Below are positions 1-9,260 of a DNA stretch of 64,000 bases, one piece after another. Made by a program: the position numbers and the translations under genes. The stretch is from Dolomitihabitans soli (GTDB lineage Bacteria; Actinomycetota; Actinomycetes; Streptosporangiales; Streptosporangiaceae), in NCBI RefSeq assembly GCF_022213955.1, contig NZ_JAKNTW010000006.1:1-64000 (forward strand), in the 5' to 3' direction. Under the pieces are notes generated by a model that had not been told where the DNA came from, searched no databases, and was given only the letters and a program-made list of their open reading frames with translations. Each line of letters opens with the position of its first letter. Position 1 is the stretch's first letter.

Positions 1-954
1 GACCTTCTGCGACAGACGCTCGAACTTGGCGTTGTTGTCGAGTCCAGTCGGGGCCGCGTTGTACACGGACTCGGTGACCTCGGCGCTCGTCAGCTTGATG
101 CCGTTGAAGCCATCAGCCGAGAGGTACTTGTCCAGGTTCTGCTGGGCGTCGGCCGGCTTGGCGACCGTCTCGACCTTCGGGTCCGCGGACTTGCGCTGGT
201 ACGGGCCGTTCTCGCCGTACTTCTTGACGCCCTCCTCGTACTCCTCCTTGGAGATCTCCTTGTCCTTGGTGTACTTCTCGCCCTTCCAGGCTTCGTACTC
301 GGACTTGAGGACCTGCTTGGTGGAGTCGAGGGAGAAGCCGTTGTACACGGTCACGAACGCGTAGTCGCGGTCGAAGTCCTCGAAGTTGCTGAAGTCGTAG
401 TGGGTGTAAGCAGTCTTACCCACGTAGACGCCGCGAGGAGCCTTGCCCTCGTGGTAGCCCGGGACGAACACCCAGTTCTGCATGACGTCACCGTTGGTGG
501 CGGTGTCGTAGACGCAGTGGCCGGCAGTCGCGACCAGGTTCTTGTACTTGGCGTCGATCGAGGTTCCGGTGCAGAACCCGAGGTCGCCCTTGCTGGTCTG
601 GAAGAACACCTTGCCAACCTGCAGCGGCAGGTTGATGTTCTTGACCACGCCGGGGGTGACCTTCTTGGCGCCGGTGGGGAGAACCAGGCCGGGCTTGCCG
701 TCGGGGCTGTAACCGCCGCCGGACTCCAGCTTCGCGCCGACGGCGCTGACCGCGGTCTCGTAGCTCTTGGCAGCCTTGAGGGCCTTGCCGTTGGAGTCGA
801 GCCAGAAGCTGGCGACCTTGGCGGCCGCAGCCGGTGCGGTGGCCAACGCGTCGCTGGCCAGCTTGGGGGCCGCCTGAGCGGTACCGGCCAGTCCAGCAGC
901 CAGCAGGCCGGTGGCGATGATCGCGCCACTGGCGGGGAGGAGGATGCGCTTCAA
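1..954 (-). CDS. Trypsin-like secreted serine peptidase, copy 1 (3' end beyond window)
   Basis: This is the N-terminal 318 codons of a secreted serine peptidase; the part holding the catalytic Ser lies outside the window. The start is TTG at 954 (TTGAAGCGC), with AAGGAG 6 nt upstream. A signal peptide ends near AQAAP. The catalytic His motif TAGHCVYD and Asp motif DRDYAF are visible, followed by the start of the inserted domain also found in the next gene. From window position 1 to about 710 it is nearly identical to bases 2532-3240 of copy 2; the mature N-terminus (residues about 30-75) differs. Recent duplication or gene conversion is inferred. Because the Ser region is missing, activity cannot be judged. 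Confidence 0.85.
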   Translation of the reverse strand, partial: MKRILLPASGAIIATGLLAAGLAGTAQAAPKLASDALATAPAAAAKVASFWLDSNGKALKAAKSYETAVSAVGAKLESGGGYSPDGKPGLVLPTGAKKVTPGVVKNINLPLQVGKVFFQTSKGDLGFCTGTSIDAKYKNLVATAGHCVYDTATNGDVMQNWVFVPGYHEGKAPRGVYVGKTAYTHYDFSNFEDFDRDYAFVTVYNGFSLDSTKQVLKSEYEAWKGEKYTKDKEISKEEYEEGVKKYGENGPYQRKSADPKVETVAKPADAQQNLDKYLSADGFNGIKLTSAEVTESVYNAAPTGLDNNAKFERLSQKV

Positions 955-975
955 GGTGACTCCTTGCGCCGTCGT

Positions 976-993
976 GAGACGCACTTGCGTCTC
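976..993. promoter_or_regulatory. Leader inverted repeat, peptidase copy 1
   Basis: GAGACGCA and TGCGTCTC form 8-bp perfect arms around CT, just upstream of the RBS. The same element is at 3507-3524 in front of copy 2. It may be an operator or an mRNA hairpin in the 5' leader. Confidence 0.5.
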
Positions 994-1209
994 ATGCGTC
1001 AGTAAAGGGATAGCCAGGACAATACATGGTTGATCATGGAGATTTGGTGGAAAGGGTCAGCACTTGTTGGCGTGCGACCCGTTAAGGGGTTTTCGCCCGC
1101 ACGGAGTGGGCAGGGGCCCAGCCCTCCTGTGGGGGCTGTTTCCGCAGATCAACATAAGAATGGTGTAAGTGGTGTCAATGTGAACCAAGGGGTGGAGCCG
1201 GCAGGCTTG

Positions 1210-1225
1210 TGTGACGCAAATCACA
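1210..1225. promoter_or_regulatory. CRP-type box TGTGA-N6-TCACA
   Basis: TGTGA CGCAAA TCACA is a perfect match to the CRP-family consensus used in many actinobacteria. It lies 256 bp upstream of peptidase copy 1, the only gene it could serve upstream-wise. An equivalent box sits upstream of copy 2. Confidence 0.55.
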
Positions 1226-1509
1226 CTTTGAAGTGGCACCGATTCGGCGCTCATCGCGTCTAACGCGACCACCTCACCGGCGGGCCCCACCTCGGGAGTC
1301 CGGACAAACAGGATTGAACCGGTCATGACTTGTGAGTCGCGGAACGCCTCCAGGCGCGAGCGGGTAGGCGTTCCGGGGTCTGCGGGTGACGCGCGCGCTC
1401 CGCAAAAGAGGCAAGCGGGGTTCTGCCGGAGCCGGGGCCCGCAAGGTGTTCAGAGCGGCTCATGCGCCCCGTGTTGGGGCGTAACCGGGGGCTGACCGGA
1501 GCCCAGCGA

Positions 1510-1835
1510 GTGGACCTACGGCGATGCGTGTGCCCCGCGAAGTGGCACAGGGCCCGACGGAAGCCGAGCCCTGCGATCGGACCCACGGCGATGCGTGTGC
1601 CCGCGAAGTGGCACAGGGCCCGGCTGTGACCGGAGCGGCGGGCTCGCTCGTGCACCCGGTGAGCGGCGAGTGCTTCGACATCCCGGAGGCGGACGCGGAA
1701 CCCTTATGGCAATGCGTGCGCCACCCCTGAACGGGTGCAGGGCCCGGCGGAAGCCGAGCCCTGCGATCAGGCTCACGGCGATGCGTGTGCCCCCTGAAAC
1801 AGGCGCAGGGCCCGGCCGAAGCCGAGCCCTGCGAT
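1510..1835. repeat. Array of degenerate repeat units with terminator-like hairpins
   Basis: A unit made of GATGCGTGTGCC, a small stem, then CAGGGCCCGG...CCGAGCCCTG recurs about four times, in degenerate form, downstream of peptidase copy 2. Clear hairpins are at 1548-1573, 1738-1763 and 1805-1832. The copy near 1611 has lost its partner arm. The copy nearest the gene (1805-1832, 12-bp stem with one non-Watson-Crick position, loop CGAA) is the likely terminator. Confidence 0.6.
1805..1832 (-). terminator. Terminator hairpin of peptidase copy 2
   Basis: GCAGGGCCCGGC and GCCGAGCCCTGC pair around a CGAA loop, 60 bp past the stop codon. The stem resembles those behind copies 4 and 5. Confidence 0.6.
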
Positions 1836-1892
1836 GGAACTGGTGTGAGTTCGAGGGTTGGACCCTCTCGCTCGAACGACGATCCTCGGGAT

Positions 1893-3485
1893 CTAGCGGA
1901 GGACGATGCCGTCCTTGGACACGATCGAACCGGACCACTTGTTCGCGGCGGAGTTGTAGACCGTGGCGGTCTCGCCGTCGAAGTAGGCGGTCGAGATCGC
2001 GTCAACGCGACCGTTCTGGTCCTGGTCGCCGAAGAGGCTGGTGACACCGTTGACGAAGCCGATGCGCTTGGCGTTGCTGTACTTGATGAGCCACGCCCCA
2101 CCGTCAGACCCAGCGGTCATGGCGCACTTGATCGCGATGTGCTCCTCGACCTTGTACGCGGCGGCGGTGTAGATCTTGCCGCTGGGCTTCTTGTTGTAGC
2201 AGTACTTCATGGTGACACCGGTGAACGGCTTGTTGCCGTCCGCGTGGGGCGCCGCCGGGAAGCCGAACACGAAGACCGGCTGGCCGCTCTTCTGGTTCCA
2301 CGCGAAGCCCTGGCCGCCGACCTGGGAGCCCAGGGAACCGCGGTCGACTGCCGAGACGATGAAGTAGTACTGGACGAAGTAGATCTCCTTGACGGAGGTC
2401 TTGACCCACTTCTTCACGAAGAACTGCTGCTTGAACCAAGCGGTCCCAGCGGCGTTCGTGGTCAGCGAGCCCAGGAACTTGCCGTCGCCCTTGGCAGTCT
2501 GGAGAGCCTTGTACTCGTCCTGGCTGATCGCGACCTTCTGCGACAGACGCTCGAACTTGGCGTTGTTGTCGAGTCCAGTCGGGGCCGCGTTGTACACGGA
2601 CTCGGTGACCTCGGCGCTCGTCAGCTTGATGCCGTTGAAGCCATCAGCCGAGAGGTACTTGTCCAGGTTCTGCTGGGCGTCGGCCGGCTTGGCGACCGTC
2701 TCGACCTTCGGGTCCGCGGACTTGCGCTGGTACGGGCCGTTCTCGCCGTACTTCTTGACGCCCTCCTCGTACTCTTCCTTGGAGATCTCCTTGTCCTTGG
2801 TGTACTTCTCGCCCTTCCAGGCTTCGTACTCGGACTTGAGGACCTGCTTGGAGGAGTCGAGGGAGAAGCCGTTGTACACGGTCACGAACGCGTAGTCGCG
2901 GTCGAAGTCCTCGAAGTTGTCGAAGTCGTAGTGGGTGTAAGCGGTCTTACCCACGTAGACGCCGCGAGGAGCCTTGCCCTCGTGGTAGCCCGGGACGAAC
3001 ACCCAGTTCCGCATGACATCGCCGTTGCTCGCCACGTCGTAGACGCAGTGGCCGGCGGTCGCGACCAGGTTCTTGTACTTGGCGTCGATCGAGGTGCCGG
3101 TGCAGAACCCGAGGTCGCCCTTGCTGGTCTGGAAGAACACCTTGCCGACGGTCAGCGGCAGGTTGATGTTCTTGACCACGCCGGGGGTGACCTTCTTGGC
3201 GCCGGTGGGGAGAACCAGGCCGGGCTTGCCGTCGGGGCTATAACCGCCGCCGGACACCAGCTTGGTCTTGGTGACGTTGGAGTCCCACTGGTACTCCTTG
3301 GCCTTCTTCATGGCCGCGCCGTTGGCCGCGTACCAGAAGTTCGCCACCGAGGCGGCGTCGGCGGGCTTGGCCGCCAGCGGGTCGGTCGCCTGGGTCGGCG
3401 CTGCCTGGGCGGCACCGGCCAGACCGGCGGCCAGCAGGCCGGTGGCGATGATCGCGCCAGTGGCGGGGAGGAGGATGCGCTTCAA
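1893..3485 (-). CDS. Trypsin-like secreted serine peptidase homologue, copy 2, with catalytic Ser replaced by Asp
   Basis: 530 residues from a TTG start at 3485 (AAGGAG 6 nt upstream). The order is: signal peptide 1-29, propeptide-like segment, His motif TAGHC (H146), Asp motif DRDYAF (D197), an inserted domain of about 170 residues (about 205-380), then the substrate-pocket half. Where paralogues read GSSGGP, this protein reads GSDGGA, so the nucleophile position is D461 (codon 2103-2105). Family knowledge says the second Ser of GxSGG is essential, so this copy should lack normal serine peptidase activity. It may be a decoy, inhibitor or binding protein; that role is inferred. It is nearly identical to copy 1 over the overlapping part. 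Confidence 0.9.
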   Translation of the reverse strand: MKRILLPATGAIIATGLLAAGLAGAAQAAPTQATDPLAAKPADAASVANFWYAANGAAMKKAKEYQWDSNVTKTKLVSGGGYSPDGKPGLVLPTGAKKVTPGVVKNINLPLTVGKVFFQTSKGDLGFCTGTSIDAKYKNLVATAGHCVYDVASNGDVMRNWVFVPGYHEGKAPRGVYVGKTAYTHYDFDNFEDFDRDYAFVTVYNGFSLDSSKQVLKSEYEAWKGEKYTKDKEISKEEYEEGVKKYGENGPYQRKSADPKVETVAKPADAQQNLDKYLSADGFNGIKLTSAEVTESVYNAAPTGLDNNAKFERLSQKVAISQDEYKALQTAKGDGKFLGSLTTNAAGTAWFKQQFFVKKWVKTSVKEIYFVQYYFIVSAVDRGSLGSQVGGQGFAWNQKSGQPVFVFGFPAAPHADGNKPFTGVTMKYCYNKKPSGKIYTAAAYKVEEHIAIKCAMTAGSDGGAWLIKYSNAKRIGFVNGVTSLFGDQDQNGRVDAISTAYFDGETATVYNSAANKWSGSIVSKDGIVLR

Positions 3486-3506
3486 GGTGACTCCTTGCGC
3501 TGTCGT

Positions 3507-3524
3507 GAGACGCACTTGCGTCTC
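3507..3524. promoter_or_regulatory. Leader inverted repeat, peptidase copy 2
   Basis: Same GAGACGCA-CT-TGCGTCTC element as at 976-993, with 21 bp between it and the TTG start. Confidence 0.5.
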
Positions 3525-3760
3525 ATGCGTCAGTAAAGGGACAGCCAGGAACATACAGCGCCGATCTTGAGTGCAGATAGCTGCTTTGATACGAAAAACG
3601 GGGCCTGAGAGTGCGTGACCTTTTCGTGATATTTGGGCGCTGAGTGTGAGTGGGGCCTGGACTCCTCGAGTGGCAACTGTTTCCGCAGGCCACTGTGAGG
3701 ATGGTGTCAGTGGGGCCAATGTGGCCCGACGGCTATGATCGCGCAGAGTGACCATTCTGG

Positions 3761-3776
3761 TGTGACTCAGATCACA
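3761..3776. promoter_or_regulatory. CRP-type box TGTGA-N6-TCACA
   Basis: TGTGA CTCAGA TCACA, perfect half sites, 276 bp upstream of peptidase copy 2. The six spacer bases differ from those of the box at 1210, while both half sites are intact, which is what a conserved protein-binding site would show. The rest of 3486-3895 holds the leader and no gene. Confidence 0.55.
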
Positions 3777-3831
3777 TCAAGCAGATGGCACCGATTCGGT
3801 GCCCAGCACGTCTAAGCCGACCCAAACGGCG

Positions 3832-3857
3832 GGGCCCCGGCGAATCCGCCGGGGCCC
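3832..3857 (-). terminator. Terminator hairpin of peptidase copy 3
   Basis: An 11-bp perfect GC-rich stem (GGGCCCCGGCG / CGCCGGGGCCC) with a 4-nt loop, 38 bp past the stop codon of the gene ending at 3896. No U-tract is obvious. Confidence 0.6.
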
Positions 3858-3895
3858 GCGTCACACGCAAGTGGGGACAAACACCATCTAACCGG

Positions 3896-5035
3896 TCACG
3901 CCGCCTTCAGGCTCTGGGCGTAGTTGTAGATGATCTGGGTGGACGCGTTGAAGTACGGCGAGGAGATCTCGTCGTTCTTCCCGTCGGCCTTCCGGTTCCA
4001 GCTGAGGCTGTTGATCCCATTGAGCAGGCCGGTGCCGGTGGCGGGGTTGTAGACGATCAGCCACGGACCGCCGCTGGCGCCGGCGGTGAACGTGCAGCCC
4101 TTGATGGCGATGCCGCGGTCGAGGAGGTAGGTGGGCGATCCCACCTTCCGGGTCTGGCCCGCGCACGACTTCAGCGAGTGACCGTTGTAGGGGCGGCTGC
4201 CGTCAGGCTGGGGTCCCGCCGGATAGCCGAAGGCGGTGGCCGCCACCGAAGCCCCCCGGCCGGCCGTGATGCCCTGGCCACCCACCTGGTCCTGGAGCAG
4301 GCCGACATCCACCTTGCGGTAGGTGCTCTGCCCCTTCGCGTCCTTGGTCGCCTCCCACTTGAACCCGCGGTGCACCGTGATGAAGGCGTAGTCGTAGTCG
4401 TAGTCGCCCTTGGCGTAATCGGTGTGCATGGTCAGCGTGTGGCCGACGTAGATGCCCTCGGGCTGCGACCCCTCGCGATAGGCCGGGACGAACACCCAGT
4501 AGTCGACGGCCTTGTTCTGGCGCAGGTCGAAGGCGCAGTGCCCGGCCGTCGCGACCAGGCTGCGGCTCTGCGCCCGCACGGCCGTGGCCGAGCACCAGTA
4601 CTCCTTCTGCCCGGTTCGGAAGTACACCTTCCCGACGGTGGCGGGGCTGGTGGAGGTCGCCGGCTTCTTGGTGGGCAGCGCCGGTTGAACGGTCCAGAGG
4701 GCGGCGGAGAGGGGGTTCGTCACCGCGGTCACCGCGGTCGCGGCGGTGTTCCCGGCCGATCGGGCGGCGGCTGCCGAGGAGGCGGCTTCGGCCTTCGGGT
4801 CGGCGGTCTTCGGAGTGGAGTCGTCGGCCTTCTTCAGGCGGTCGGGCTTCCAGAACTCCTCGACCGCGGTCACGTGGGCCTTGCTCTGCGCGAGAGGAAA
4901 GGACAGGACCGCGGATGGGACGCGAGCGGAGGGAGCCAGGGCGTACGCGGCTCCCGCGGATGCGGGCACGACGATCGCACCCACGACCAAGAGGCCGGCG
5001 AGTGCAGCCGTGAGCCGCCTTGCGCGGGGAGACAT
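3896..5035 (-). CDS. Trypsin-like secreted serine peptidase, copy 3 (diverged)
   Basis: 379 residues from ATG at 5035, with an AAAGG-type RBS. It has an N-terminal signal peptide (RRLTAALAGLLVVGAIV), an Ala-rich pro-region about 60-130, H166 in TAGHC, D215 in DYDYAF and S321 in GASGGPW, so the triad looks complete. It lacks the large insertion of copies 1, 2 and 4. It is the most diverged member of the cluster: different pro-region, ATG instead of TTG start, own terminator. It probably acts outside the cell as an endopeptidase; cleavage specificity cannot be read from the sequence. Confidence 0.88.
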   Translation of the reverse strand: MSPRARRLTAALAGLLVVGAIVVPASAGAAYALAPSARVPSAVLSFPLAQSKAHVTAVEEFWKPDRLKKADDSTPKTADPKAEAASSAAAARSAGNTAATAVTAVTNPLSAALWTVQPALPTKKPATSTSPATVGKVYFRTGQKEYWCSATAVRAQSRSLVATAGHCAFDLRQNKAVDYWVFVPAYREGSQPEGIYVGHTLTMHTDYAKGDYDYDYAFITVHRGFKWEATKDAKGQSTYRKVDVGLLQDQVGGQGITAGRGASVAATAFGYPAGPQPDGSRPYNGHSLKSCAGQTRKVGSPTYLLDRGIAIKGCTFTAGASGGPWLIVYNPATGTGLLNGINSLSWNRKADGKNDEISSPYFNASTQIIYNYAQSLKAA

Positions 5036-5239
5036 GTGGACCTGGCCTTTCCGCTGTCGTGGGGGGAACGAAAGCTGTGTTCGAGCGATTTTCCCAGATC
5101 AATTAGCTTTTCGGTATCGCGCTTGGTCGATCTGGCTCTGGTCCGTTACCTGATCAAGCGTGCCTTCGCTGGTATAAGGACTACGTCAACGGGGTTTCCG
5201 TCGTACGAGCACGTCGTGAAATCCGTTGGCAAAGAGAAC

Positions 5240-5269
5240 GAAGGGGCCCGGTCGGAACCGAGCCCCTTC
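5240..5269 (-). terminator. Terminator hairpin of peptidase copy 4
   Basis: GAAGGGGCCCGGT and ACCGAGCCCCTTC pair (one G-U) around CGGA, 20 bp past the stop of the gene ending at 5289. The stem and loop resemble those at 7316-7347 and 1805-1832. Confidence 0.7.
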
Positions 5270-5288
5270 GCGTTCAACCGATCAGTCC

Positions 5289-6854
5289 TCAGCCACCGAA
5301 CTTGCCGGTCCAGAGGTTGGCGGCGTACTTGTAGATGCCCGCGGTCTCACCGTCGAAGTACGGCGAGGAGACGCGGTCGTAACGCTTGTTACCGTCGGTG
5401 TCGAGAGCCAGGCTCACCACGCCGTTCAGGTAGCCGGTGCGCTTGCTGCTCTTGTACTGCAGCAGGAACGGGCCGCCGCTGGAGCCGGGGGTGAAGGCGC
5501 ACTTGATGGCGACCTGCTCCTCGACCTTGTACTTCGGCACGGCCGGACCCGCGTAGGTCTTGTTGTAGCACCACTTCATGGTCTCGCCGCTGTACGGCTT
5601 GTTGCCGTCGGGGTGCGCCGCGGTCGGGTAGCCGAACGCGAAGACCTTCTTGCCGAGCTTCTGGTTCCAGGCGAAGCCCTGACCGCCGACGTTGTCGCCC
5701 AGGCGGCCGGCGCTGGCGAAGGTCTTGATGAAGTAGCGAGACTGGTAGTACTCCTCCTTCACCGTGGTCTTGACCCACTTCTTGATGAAGAAGTTGGTCT
5801 TGTACCAGGCGGTCTCGTTGCCGTTGGTGTCCTTGTCGGCCTCGAGCTTGCCGAGGAACTTGCCGTCACCCTTGTCCTTGAGGAGCTGCTGGTACTCCTG
5901 CTGGGTGATCGGCTGCTTCTTCGACTTGCGCTCGAACTTGGCGTTGTTGTCCAGGCCACTGGGGGCGGCCTTGTAGACCGCCTCGGTGACCTCTTCGGCC
6001 GCCAGCTTGATGCCGTTGCGGCCTTCCTTGATGTACTCCTCAAGGTGCTGCTGGGCGTCGGCCGGCTTGGCGACGGTCTCGACCTTGGGGTCGGTCAGCT
6101 TCTTCCAGAACGGGCCGTTGAGGCCGTACTTGTCGATGCCCTTGGCGTACTCGTCGGCCGTGATCTTACGGTCGACGGTGTACTTGAAGCCCTTGTGCTT
6201 GTCGTACTCGGACTTGACGACTTCCTTCTCGCCGGTCTGCTTGATGCCGTCGTAGACGTTGACGAAGGCGTAGTCCCTGTCGTAGTCCTCGTAGACGTCG
6301 AAGTCGTAGTGCGTGTGCATCTTGGCGCCGACGTAGATGCCCCGGGCAGCCTTGCCCTGGTGGTAACCGGGGATGAACACGAAGTTCTGGACCGGCTTGT
6401 TCTTGTCGGTGTCGTAGACGCAGTGGCCCGCGGTGGCGACGAGGTTCTTGTACTTGGACTCGACGACGGAGCCGGAGCAGTAGTACGGCTTGCCGTCCAC
6501 CTCGAAGAAGACCCGGCCGACCGTGAGGGGCAGGTTGACGTTCTTCGACTTGCCGGCGCTGCCCTTGCCCTGGCCGGTGGGGGGAACGAGGCCCGCCTTG
6601 CCGTCGGCCGAGGCCTTCTTGGAGGTCGAGAGCTTGCCGGAAACGCCGGCGTCCTCGGTGTAGTGCTTCGCCGCCTTGAGGCGGGTCGCCGTCCAGTTGC
6701 CGGCGATGGACTTCGCGTCGCCCGATGTGGACATCGTGTGGGTCTTGCGGTCAGGTGCCGCCTCAGCAGAGGTGGCGAGCGACGCGCCCACCACGGTCGA
6801 GGCGATGAGAGCGCCTCCCAGCGGGAGGACCAGGCGCTTGGCTCGGGTGTTCAA
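5289..6854 (-). CDS. Trypsin-like secreted serine peptidase, copy 4 (with inserted domain)
   Basis: 521 residues from a TTG start at 6854 with AAGGAG upstream. Signal peptide 1-33 (ends SAEAA). Catalytic residues H144 (TAGHC), D194 (DRDYAF) and S459 (GSSGGP) are all present. Residues about 208-378 form an insertion between Asp and Ser, absent from copies 3 and 5. It carries two related segments, each with an ITxxEY core (near 231-236 and 316-321). Cys pairs C126/C145 and C429/C452 are placed to form the usual disulfides. Upstream DNA is shared with copy 5. Confidence 0.9.
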   Translation of the reverse strand: MNTRAKRLVLPLGGALIASTVVGASLATSAEAAPDRKTHTMSTSGDAKSIAGNWTATRLKAAKHYTEDAGVSGKLSTSKKASADGKAGLVPPTGQGKGSAGKSKNVNLPLTVGRVFFEVDGKPYYCSGSVVESKYKNLVATAGHCVYDTDKNKPVQNFVFIPGYHQGKAARGIYVGAKMHTHYDFDVYEDYDRDYAFVNVYDGIKQTGEKEVVKSEYDKHKGFKYTVDRKITADEYAKGIDKYGLNGPFWKKLTDPKVETVAKPADAQQHLEEYIKEGRNGIKLAAEEVTEAVYKAAPSGLDNNAKFERKSKKQPITQQEYQQLLKDKGDGKFLGKLEADKDTNGNETAWYKTNFFIKKWVKTTVKEEYYQSRYFIKTFASAGRLGDNVGGQGFAWNQKLGKKVFAFGYPTAAHPDGNKPYSGETMKWCYNKTYAGPAVPKYKVEEQVAIKCAFTPGSSGGPFLLQYKSSKRTGYLNGVVSLALDTDGNKRYDRVSSPYFDGETAGIYKYAANLWTGKFGG

Positions 6855-7315
6855 TCTAGCTCCTTCTCGATCGTCGTACGGAGGGGCATCAGGGGGTGCT
6901 GCGCCGCGCTGCCGTACGAGCGTTGGTCACGGCTTGTCTAAGGACGTTCCATGGCCGCGTAAAGAGACAAGAAGAGACCGTAGCCACCTGATCATGGTCT
7001 AAGCAGCCGAAAACCGGACAAATGGCCGGACCGTTACCGTGTTGTTATCAAAGCCATGGAACCGAACTGGGAACGGCTGCGTCTGATATTGCTGCGCTTT
7101 GGGGTGGCGTTCCCCCTGTGACCTGGAGTGATGGGTGAGACTGCGTGGTCGACGCGAGGCGCAGAGTCTCCGTGAAGAAGTTCGCCGACGAGGGAACCGG
7201 ATCGAGCGAGTCGCAGCCCGTTGCCGCATAGTTGCGGGCCGCGATCGGGAGGCGCGCGTCTCAGCCACTACAAGAGGTCTCGGCCAAGGTCATATAACAA
7301 GGTCATATAAGAGGA
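6855..7315. promoter_or_regulatory. Duplicated upstream region of peptidase copy 4
   Basis: No gene is seen. Much of 6855-7145 matches 8426-8705 upstream of copy 5, including a block around 6955-7000 (AAAGAGACAAGAAGAGACCG...) that probably holds the promoter; I cannot assign -10 or -35 boxes safely. A 12-bp direct repeat AAGGTCATATAA lies at about 7286-7297 and 7300-7311. Confidence 0.4.
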
Positions 7316-7347
7316 CGAGAGGGCTCGGTCGGAACCGAGCCCTCTCG
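7316..7347 (-). terminator. Terminator hairpin of peptidase copy 5
   Basis: A perfect 14-bp stem (CGAGAGGGCTCGGT / ACCGAGCCCTCTCG) with CGGA loop, 19 bp past the stop codon at 7367. Confidence 0.75.
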
Positions 7348-7366
7348 CACGTCACCTGATCAACAC

Positions 7367-8425
7367 TCAGCCGGCGAACTTACCGGTCCAGAGGTTGGAG
7401 GCGTACTTGTAGATCCCAGCGGTCTCGCCGTCGAAGTACGGCGAGGAGACGCGGTCATACCTCTGGTTGCCATCGGTGTCGAGAGCCAGGCTCACCACAC
7501 CGTTGAGGTAGCCGACGCGCTTGCTGTTGCTGTACTGCAGCAGAAGCGGGCCGCCGCTGGAGCCGGGGGTGAAGGCGCACTTGATGGCGACTCCTTCCTC
7601 GACCTTGTACTTCGGCACGGCCGGACCCGCGTAGGTCTTGCCGTAGCAGTGCTTCATGGTCTCGCCGGTGTAGGCCTTGTTACCGTCGAGGTGCGGACCG
7701 GTCGGGTAGCCGAACGCGAAGACGTTCTTGCCGAGCTTCTGGTTCCACGCGAAGCCCTGGGCGCCGACGTTGTCGCTCAGGCGACCGGCGTCGACCCAGC
7801 CCTTGTCCGTCTGCTTGATGCCGTTGTAGACGTTGACGAAGGAGTAGTCCCTGTCATAGTCCTCGAAGACATCGAAGTCGTAGTGCGTGTGCATCTTGGC
7901 GCCGACGTAGATCCCCCACGGCGCCTTGGTCTCGTAGTAGCCGGGGATGAAGACGAAGTTGTCTACCGGCTTGTTCTTGTCGGTGTCGTAGACGCAGTGA
8001 CCCGCGGTGGCGACGAGGTTCTTGAACTTGGACTCGATGGCGGAGCCGGAGCAGTAGTACGGCTGGCCGTCCACCTCGAAGAAGACGCGGCCGACCGTGG
8101 TCGGCAGGTTCACGTTCTTCGCCCTGCCCGCGGAGCGGTTGACGTCGGTCGGGGCGACGAGCCCTGACTTGCCATCCGCTGCGGCCTTCTTGGAGGTCTT
8201 GAACTTGCCTGACGCTCCAGCGTCTTCTGTGTAGTGCTTGGCGGCCTTGAGCTTGCTGGCCGTCCAGTTGCCCGCGACGGCTTTCGCACTCTTGGTCGAG
8301 GACAGCGAGTGCGTCTTCCGCTCAGGTGCCGCCTCTGCCGAAGTGGCGAGCGACGCGCCCACCACTGTCGAGGCGATCACGACGCCTCCGAGCGGGAGGA
8401 CCAGGCGCTTGGCTCGGGTGTTCAA
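7367..8425 (-). CDS. Trypsin-like secreted serine peptidase, copy 5 (no insertion)
   Basis: 352 residues from a TTG start at 8425 (AAGGAG upstream); longer in-frame starts lack an RBS and would extend past the signal peptide. Signal peptide 1-33, H143 (AGHC), D193 (DRDYSF) and S290 (GSSGGP) give a complete triad. It is close to copy 4 throughout, except that the 170-residue block between Asp and Ser is absent and the flanks join at IKQTDKGWVDAGRLSDN. Copy 4 and copy 5, with their promoters and terminators, are a segmental duplicate pair. Confidence 0.9.
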   Translation of the reverse strand: MNTRAKRLVLPLGGVVIASTVVGASLATSAEAAPERKTHSLSSTKSAKAVAGNWTASKLKAAKHYTEDAGASGKFKTSKKAAADGKSGLVAPTDVNRSAGRAKNVNLPTTVGRVFFEVDGQPYYCSGSAIESKFKNLVATAGHCVYDTDKNKPVDNFVFIPGYYETKAPWGIYVGAKMHTHYDFDVFEDYDRDYSFVNVYNGIKQTDKGWVDAGRLSDNVGAQGFAWNQKLGKNVFAFGYPTGPHLDGNKAYTGETMKHCYGKTYAGPAVPKYKVEEGVAIKCAFTPGSSGGPLLLQYSNSKRVGYLNGVVSLALDTDGNQRYDRVSSPYFDGETAGIYKYASNLWTGKFAG

Positions 8426-8743
8426 TCTTGCTCCTTCATGATCGTCGTGCGGCGTGGACGCCTTGCGCCGCGCAGCCGTACGAGCCTTGGTCAAGACTTG
8501 TCAAAGGACAGTCCATGGCCGCGTAAAGAGACAAGAAGAGACCGTAGCCACCTGATCATGGTCCAAGCAGCCCGAAACTGGGCAAACAGCCGGACCGTTA
8601 TCGCTTCGTTACTGAGCGGCAGGAACCGATTTGGTGATCATCGCGTCCCAATTAGCCAAATCTTGAAGTGTCGTTTCGCAGGTGAACTGGAGTGATGGGA
8701 GAGGCTGAGCGCGCAATCGATGTCAACCACAATCGGGGGATTG
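8426..8743. promoter_or_regulatory. Divergent intergenic region between peptidase copy 5 and the SSI gene
   Basis: No gene is seen. The left part repeats the upstream region of copy 4 (to about 8705). The SSI gene on the other strand begins right after the end of the duplicated block, so inhibitor and peptidase diverge from one intergenic region. Confidence 0.4.
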
Positions 8744-9214
8744 ATGCGTCGCTTCGCGCGCCTGGCCGCACTCGGCCCGGCCCTACTCATCGGTGCCACC
8801 CTGGCCACCGCCACGCCCGCCGCCGCAGCCACGGAGGGCGTCACCACGCCGCCGCCTGGTGACGTTTTCTCGTGGTGGCCCTGGCAGCCCGAATACAGCC
8901 CACGCCGTACGCTCACGCTCACCATCAGCGAGAGCTGGCAGTCGTATGACCAGCCCGATCGGCGCGTGCAGCTGGTCTGCTCGCCCAGGCACTCCGGGCA
9001 CCCGAACGCCTGGTCGGCGTGCATCCAGCTCGCCCGCGCGAACGGCAACCCGGCCTACCTCCGCCCGACCTGGGGACTCGCCTGCACCAGGGAGTACAAC
9101 CCGGTGACGGTCACCGCGAACGGCGTCTGGGACGGCAACTACATCCGTTACCAGCGCACCTTCGCCAACTCCTGCACACTCAACGCCACGACGGGCTCTG
9201 TCTACAGGTTCTGA
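8744..9214 (+). CDS. SSI-family (subtilisin inhibitor-like) secreted protease inhibitor
   Basis: 156 residues. A signal peptide (MRRFARLAALGPALL...AAAA) is followed by the SSI domain. The four conserved Cys are at 79, 93, 114 and 144, matching the two SSI disulfides. Family landmarks include HPNAWSAC, REYNPVTVTANGVWDG and the C-terminal SVYRF. The reactive site, CPM in classical SSI, is CTR here, so P1 is R116, which predicts inhibition of trypsin-like rather than subtilisin-like enzymes. The start was taken at 8744 because GGGGGA lies just upstream; ATG 8720 is in frame but has no close RBS. It lies head-to-head with the peptidase cluster and may restrain those enzymes (inference). Confidence 0.93.
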   Translation: MRRFARLAALGPALLIGATLATATPAAAATEGVTTPPPGDVFSWWPWQPEYSPRRTLTLTISESWQSYDQPDRRVQLVCSPRHSGHPNAWSACIQLARANGNPAYLRPTWGLACTREYNPVTVTANGVWDGNYIRYQRTFANSCTLNATTGSVYRF

Positions 9215-9229
9215 CAGATGTCGAATCAT

Positions 9230-9260
9230 GAGTCCGGGTCGTTATTTTCGACCCGGACTC
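9230..9260 (+). terminator. Terminator of SSI gene
   Basis: A perfect 12-bp stem GAGTCCGGGTCG / CGACCCGGACTC with a T-rich loop (TTATTTT), 15 bp past the stop codon. Confidence 0.8.

Follow-up and report, generated by a model that had tools for sequence, protein, structure and literature searches.

Trypsin-fold peptidases, aspartate-for-serine paralogs, and an SSI-family inhibitor gene at a divergent locus conserved in Streptosporangiaceae

The window analyzed here, the first 64 kb of contig C66 (NZ_JAKNTW010000006.1) in the 10.8-Mb genome of Dolomitihabitans soli, opens with a locus in which five related trypsin-fold open reading frames (ORFs; p1–p5) on the minus strand are divergent from a plus-strand gene of the SSI inhibitor family (PF00720), with p5 the nearest of the five. 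We give about an even chance to the reading that this locus represents a conserved extracellular proteolysis module of the Streptosporangiaceae, comprised of active peptidases, an SSI inhibitor, and non-cutting pseudo-peptidases. At the level of sequence, four features characterize such loci: the divergent neighborhood, a gradient from Ser to Asp at the nucleophile position along the array, an otherwise preserved active site in the Asp-type, and a leader upstream of most Asp-type genes that bear an inserted domain (insert-type genes). The first-pass annotation of this DNA had recognized the five related ORFs and the SSI gene, both of which are present (the SSI protein matches PF00720 with 84.5 bits, the cut-off being 23.9), and had counted five peptidases; as homologs of the fold all five stand, but function is doubtful, p2 being without a catalytic Ser. 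It had overlooked the Ser-to-Asp change in p2, the inserted domain, and the conserved leader, and a part of the array is probably not enzymatic.

Conservation of the Divergent SSI Neighborhood

A survey of 297 family genomes, drawn irrespective of SSI, revealed the inserted domain (E 1e-12) in 98 genomes from 19 of 68 genera. At least one SSI gene is found in all 98, with about 1.8 each, and in at least 45 of them, from 12 of the 19 genera, an SSI gene is located within 10 kb of an inserted domain, the nearest pair being divergent in 45 of 45. The figure of 45 is a lower bound, as insert matches in the largest genus were entered for 35 of its 38 genomes. By chance, linkage would be expected in roughly half a per cent of genomes, an estimate based on 1.8 SSI genes in ∼9 Mb. 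The earlier proposal that these genes belong together as a unit rather than by coincidence, to be checked by conservation of the neighborhood in relatives, is borne out by this divergent pairing across 12 genera.

The linked SSI sequences also cluster on a tree of 71 rows (45 linked), with 4 label changes compared with a shuffled mean of 21, on a topology that is weakly resolved (12 of 68 inner branches starred) and that has one linked and one unlinked row out of place. A scan with p4 returned 17 loci, a sample that therefore favors the arrangement, and in 14 of these an SSI gene is divergent from, and adjoins, the first insert-type peptidase (Thermocatellispora, Planobispora, Microtetraspora, Sinosporangium, three Spongiactinospora, and seven Sphaerisporangium). 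The three Nonomuraea loci contain no SSI in the stretch examined. All 14 SSI-bearing loci are among the 45 linked genomes and do not constitute a second sample.

Aspartate at the Catalytic Serine Position

A complete His-Asp-Ser triad is found in p3 (3896..5035, minus strand, 379 residues; His166, Asp215, and Ser321 in GASGG), p4 (5289..6854, minus strand, TTG start, 521 residues; His144, Asp194, and Ser459 in GSSGG), and p5 (7367..8425, minus strand, 352 residues; His143, Asp193, and Ser290 in GSSGG). In p2 (1893..3485, minus strand, TTG start, 530 residues), His146 and Asp197 are kept, and a GAC codon at 2103..2105 (minus strand) places Asp461 at the position of the catalytic Ser, with GSDGG instead of GxSGG and an incomplete triad; on its sequence, p2 is a homolog of the fold that is not classed as an active peptidase.

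The same replacement is widespread among relatives. From 383 paralog rows, removal of copies left 322, and 310 of these have all three triad columns (12 were dropped). In these 310 sequences, which are related by descent and are not independent events, the nucleophile position is occupied by Ser in 140, Asp in 136, Thr in 11, Asn in 9, Ala in 6, Leu in 4, Ile in 2, and Gly in 2. The triad His and Asp are both retained in 133 of the 136 Asp-type sequences. Across the 62 columns that are nearly fixed in the Ser-type (140 rows, nucleophile included), median retention in the Asp-type (134 rows), with the nucleophile left out, is 0.99, the least retained being one Pro (0.66) and two Cys (0.78). Asp-type sequences are also nearly invariant for new residues at several other columns, as seen in a set that still contained copies. 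On a tree of 73 rows, from which the insert and nucleophile columns were left out, the Asp label changes 4 times (shuffled mean, 17) and the Thr label once.

The ratio of nonsynonymous to synonymous substitution rates (dN/dS) was estimated for each gene against its nearest relative in another genome (70–97% identity, dS 0.1–2, mutual pairs counted twice), a measure that is crude at this G+C content and is used here for broad likeness between classes only. The median is 0.48 for insert-type Asp genes (79 comparisons, range 0.14–1.03) and 0.40 for insert-type Ser genes (39 comparisons); for short genes it is 0.24 for Asp (23 comparisons) and 0.35 for Ser (56 comparisons). The Asp-type medians are well below 1 and broadly similar to those of the Ser-type. 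Leu or Ile is found at the nucleophile position (GAIGS, GSLGS, GALGS) in six stretches with one insert-type gene each and no linked SSI (L171, L172, L173, L174, L176, and L177).

Gradient along the Arrays

The order of nucleophile residues was read in 71 stretches (69 from 68 genomes and two more), which include all 44 SSI-linked arrays outside the window. The peptidase closest to SSI has Ser in 33 arrays, Thr in 10, and Asn in 1 (n = 44), and the second has Ser in 35 of 44 and Asp in 9 of 44. Asp then predominates at the third (28/40), fourth (25/36), and fifth (16/21) places. At least one Asp-type gene is contained in 32 of the 44 linked arrays, and ten of the remaining twelve come from one genus; among all 71 stretches, 53 have the Asp-type, 56 the Ser-type, and 44 both.

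In the genus of the Sphaerisporangium loci (L084–L090), the SSI-adjacent peptidase carries Thr (GATGG) in 7 of 7 loci and in 10 of 10 arrays of the genus, which include those seven. A separate short Ser-type clade with ATSAHC for ATAGHC (L079 2938–4119, L080 7973–9148, and L081 3807–5033) is located on the far side of SSI in some arrays.

The Inserted Domain

A domain of ∼170 residues separates the half of the protein containing the catalytic His and Asp from the half containing the nucleophile in p1 (110 residues visible), p2 (2358..2861, minus strand, 168 residues), and p4 (5727..6239, minus strand, 171 residues, between the two β-barrels), and is absent from p3 and p5. A predicted model of p4 (predicted local distance difference test (pLDDT) 80, predicted template modeling score (pTM) 0.65) has the two-barrel trypsin fold, and its nearest solved structures are 3wy8 (Anisep; Z 28.9, root mean squared deviation 2.1, 219 residues aligned) and 3cp7 (Z 28.7), followed by the glutamyl endopeptidases of Bacillus and staphylococci with Z of 19–22. 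The nearest solved structures to p5 are likewise 3wy8 and 3cp7. Counting back from the Ser of CAFTPGSSGG, a count made by sequence and not by superposition, residue 189 at the bottom of the S1 pocket, which is Asp in trypsins of Arg/Lys specificity, would be Ala.

When predicted alone, the inserted domain gave a model (pLDDT 93.5, pTM 0.67) in which strands and helices alternate. Searches with it returned no more than scattered weak matches in Pfam (E 0.003 for the best, and never in more than 3 of 25 members), a best E of 0.12 against PDB sequences, and, against structures, a best E of 0.92 with Foldseek and a best Z of 3.0 with VIA-align. The domain is without a clear fold match in these sequence and structure searches, which is not proof of a new fold. 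Among 394 genomes of the class it is found in 11 at E 1e-8, all 11 belonging to the Streptosporangiaceae. Judging from the sequences, p5 looks like a copy of p4 that has lost the insert, because it is the sister of p4 in the 73-row tree (Shimodaira-Hasegawa-like approximate likelihood ratio test (SH-aLRT) 99).

A Conserved Hairpin Leader

Immediately before the ribosome-binding site, p1 (954..1028, minus strand), p2 (3485..3559, minus strand), and many insert-type genes of other genera have in common a 75-nt hairpin leader, which is lacking in p3, p4, and p5. Scored by a pattern that allows two mismatches, with copies removed, the leader precedes 71 of 100 insert-type Asp genes, 8 of 9 with Asn, 7 of 8 with Leu, Ile, or Ala, 21 of 50 with Ser, and 0 of 11 with Thr; for short genes the counts are 1 of 90 (Ser) and 0 of 36 (Asp). 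The leader is a candidate new regulatory element. A model of it matched 13 of 21 genomes searched, all 24 matches lying inside arrays, and gave 0 matches in 8 genomes chosen for lacking the insert (150 candidates scored per genome). Rfam contained no family matching the window between 850 and 9300 at E 1.

The 13-pair hairpin forms in 95.8% of cells scored over 41 leader sequences. None of 500 shuffles (mean 0.095) attained its covariation score of 0.121, but only 2 pairs change on both sides, which was equaled in 173 of 500 shuffles; support for the hairpin from covariation is thus moderate. A coding extension was considered and rejected: among 100 unique leaders, 10 lack the conserved upstream ATG or GTG codon and 3 were not scored, and in the 87 scored the frame from that codon to the main start is 0 in 56, 1 in 21, and 2 in 10. 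Because this frame is not constant, the leader is not a conserved N terminus. It is possible that it holds a short Arg-rich upstream ORF (MGRKRRSTTAQG-like; MRRKCVSRRRKESP and MRRKCVSRQRKESP in the window).

The SSI Gene and Flanking Features

The SSI gene (8720..9214, plus strand) encodes 164 residues and is separated from p5 by a divergent intergenic region of 294 nt (8426..8719); translation may instead begin at an in-frame ATG at 8744, from which the signal peptide looks cleaner by eye. Four cysteines (Cys87, Cys101, Cys122, and Cys152) are present, and the reactive loop CTREYNP aligns with CPMVYDP of the founding SSI, which places Arg124 (codon 9089..9091, plus strand) opposite its Met as the P1 residue. 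Subtilisin is the target of the founding SSI, and within the family only certain members are known to inhibit trypsin-fold enzymes. The earlier description of the peptidases as paired with their own type of inhibitor is therefore loose. A second SSI gene of the genome is located on contig C80, ∼200 kb from a further short Ser-type paralog on that contig (L099 7105–8271) that is 74–78% identical to p4. Sec-type signal sequences were recognized by eye in the products of the locus.

The start of C66, position 1, truncates p1, whose N-terminal part (1..954, minus strand, TTG start at 954) bears the insert. The first 127 bases of C55 are identical to this end of the window on the opposite strand, and the same 127-mer occurs inside p2. 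Because the 127-mer is common to both contig ends and p2, the C66/C55 junction is an assembly break inside the p1/p2 repeat. An open frame of 259 codons on C55 (motif GGASGG) probably completes the C-terminal half of p1, and the 3′ halves of p1 and p2 may have been swapped in the assembly.

The first-pass annotation had called the pairs p1/p2 and p4/p5 nearly identical, promoters and terminators included, which is overstated. Identity between p1 and p2 is 91.5% in DNA (1,026 aligned bases) and 89.6% in protein (326 residues), whereas p4 and p5 are 82% (912 bases) and 88% (482 bases) identical in DNA and 81 and 85% in protein, with p5 169 residues shorter for want of the insert. As regards flanking sequence, the claim fits p4/p5, where the match extends 282–289 bases upstream of the starts and each stop is followed by a terminator-like stem of 15 pairs (5238..5271 for p4 and 7315..7348 for p5, both minus strand; the terminator scan gave 12 sites compared with 6.8 in shuffles). 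For p1/p2, the upstream match spans just 72 bases, corresponding to the leader, and p1 is cut off by the window before its 3′ end. The promoter scan was uninformative (2 matches compared with 0.9 in shuffles).

Trypsin-type Pfam models score p3, p4, and p5 above a cut-off and p1 and p2 below it. No P-domain was found in p1–p5, which matched no Pfam models other than trypsin-type ones at E 0.01 (p1 being given without its C-terminal half). A role in anti-phage defense was considered and rejected, PADLOC returning 0 families for p2, p3, p4, p5, and SSI at E 0.01. Between p1 and p2 (1467–1860), a 69-nt element built around a GC-rich palindromic core (AGGGCCCG...GAGCCCTG) is present in four imperfect copies.

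A Proteolysis Module and Its Alternatives

In the proposed module, one or more active secreted trypsin-fold peptidases would be produced beside a secreted, oppositely transcribed SSI, and the predicted inhibition would restrain them outside the cell until they are needed, by analogy with Sti in Streptomyces. The Asp-type paralogs, found in most arrays, probably no longer cut; they could instead tune the system by binding, but not cleaving, a substrate, the inhibitor, or a partner, with the inserted domain acting as a putative binding module.

Several observations weigh against this reading. Of the 98 insert-bearing genomes, 53 showed no SSI within 10 kb, 3 of these because their insert matches were not entered, and the 53 include genera with one or two weaker matches per genome together with 29 of the 38 genomes of the largest genus. 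In one array (G015; L096 9300–10400) the place of SSI is taken by a gene pair, which we take to resemble a toxin-antitoxin system. Asp is in the minority beyond the fifth place (sixth, 2/7; seventh, 0/1, with Ala), and one genus (ten arrays) is without the Asp-type and has Thr for Ser in the SSI-adjacent gene. The P1 residue of linked SSIs varies (Arg, Lys, His, Met, Thr, Ala, Leu, and Glu), and the AFTPG preceding the nucleophile, on which any statement about the pocket rests, is constant in 14 of 14 SSI-adjacent insert-type peptidases of the p4-derived loci as well as in p4 and p5. Because P1 varies while AFTPG stays, a simple match of P1 to pocket is unsupported, and the drift speaks somewhat against a tight one. 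Co-variation of P1 and pocket was not seen, in a weak test for which the columns printed 189–195 and 213–217 were shifted by alignment gaps. As the SSI family inhibits several protease classes, the target may also be located elsewhere in the genome.

It is a possibility to be taken seriously, if well short of even, that the array is an ordinary digestive set and that SSI guards against other proteases, such as subtilisins and metalloproteases, having nothing in common with its neighbors but a time of expression set by the divergent promoter region. The drift of P1 beside an unchanging AFTPG, the many genomes with arrays and no linked SSI, and the presence of at least one further SSI elsewhere in 31 of the 45 linked genomes would all fit such an arrangement. 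Less readily accommodated are the frequency of the divergent pairing, to which the 45 nearest pairs offer no exception, and the clustering of the linked SSIs on their tree.

The Asp-type genes allow further alternatives. They could be decaying, functionless duplicates maintained temporarily by frequent tandem duplication; array sizes do vary, one genome has a frame-broken member (L090 = L161), and, as a further point against the module, among insert-type genes those with Asp evolve a little faster than those with Ser, their dN/dS ranging up to 1.03. We regard decay as very unlikely, given that Asp has been kept over many genera, nearly always with the triad His and Asp and with column retention of 0.99, that dN/dS is well below 1, and that the leader is still present upstream of 71 of 100 insert-type Asp genes. 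Conversely, the persistence of His and Asp in spite of Ser loss, along with the several columns nearly fixed to new residues, might be taken as the signature of enzymes with an altered His-Asp-Asp site, for example with Asp as the nucleophile or as a general acid acting on a different bond. This is unlikely in our view: we know of no chymotrypsin-fold enzyme with an Asp nucleophile, two of the positions fixed in the Ser-type, both cysteines, are retained by no more than 0.78 of Asp-type sequences, and retention of the residues may reflect the fold alone. A broader and still doubtful proposal, for which we would claim somewhat more, is that the Asp-type is a distinct old class with a defined job on the His-Asp-Asp site, either a new chemistry or a regulatory role, integral to the locus, in which they hold SSI or substrate and thereby control the active sisters.

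Comparison with Known Systems

No description of this locus was found among the matches listed in the open-license literature. Protease/inhibitor pairs and arrays of secreted proteases are already known, and their joining with Asp-for-Ser paralogs would provide a testable case of the control of extracellular proteolysis. If the Asp-type is indeed a defined class, the locus would be, to our knowledge, the first bacterial module of protease, pseudoprotease, and inhibitor in one place. It would offer, moreover, a large natural series on pseudoprotease function. Most surprising is the replacement of Ser by Asp in a site that is otherwise unaltered. A parallel for this replacement is human protein Z, a pseudoprotease of trypsin fold in which Asp occupies the Ser position and which acts as the cofactor of a protease inhibitor; unlike the Asp-type, it is a vertebrate clotting protein, its inhibitor is a serpin, and its catalytic His is also lost.

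The SERA proteins of Plasmodium are, according to the portions of the sources concerned (PMC7132891, PMC5500368, PMC4671257), a tandemly clustered family with a pseudoprotease member, SERA5, that regulates a proteolytic event, although these are eukaryotic and papain-like, with Ser in place of the catalytic Cys. Anisep of Arthrobacter (3wy8) and AL20 of Nesterenkonia (3cp7), secreted-type serine proteases presented in the relevant part of PMC6524800, are the nearest solved structures to p4 and p5 and differ in their size of ∼216–219 residues, their Ser nucleophile, and the absence of an inserted domain.

The staphylococcal spl operon likewise encodes several secreted trypsin-fold peptidases at one locus; the part of its description consulted names six proteases and mentions neither an inhibitor nor an Asp-for-Ser member (PMC7926377), and the Spl structures matched by the p4 model comprise ∼200 residues without an insert. 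In staphylococcal sspABC (V8 protease, staphopain B, and staphostatin B), secreted proteases are encoded with a specific inhibitor, as here, but by the account in the section concerned the three genes form an operon, and the inhibitor is cytoplasmic and directed at a cysteine protease (PMC4490255), whereas the present locus has a divergent SSI with a signal sequence and a tandem array of serine peptidases. A functional analogy is with sporulating actinomycetes, in which, as described in the section of PMC4255298 concerned, the secreted SSI-family inhibitor Sti restrains the developmental protease cascade of Streptomyces, itself composed of secreted proteases. P-domains are present in the specific targets of Sti, and that section does not mention a head-to-head array, whereas at the present locus the inhibitor faces an array of trypsin-fold paralogs, many with the insert and without the catalytic Ser.

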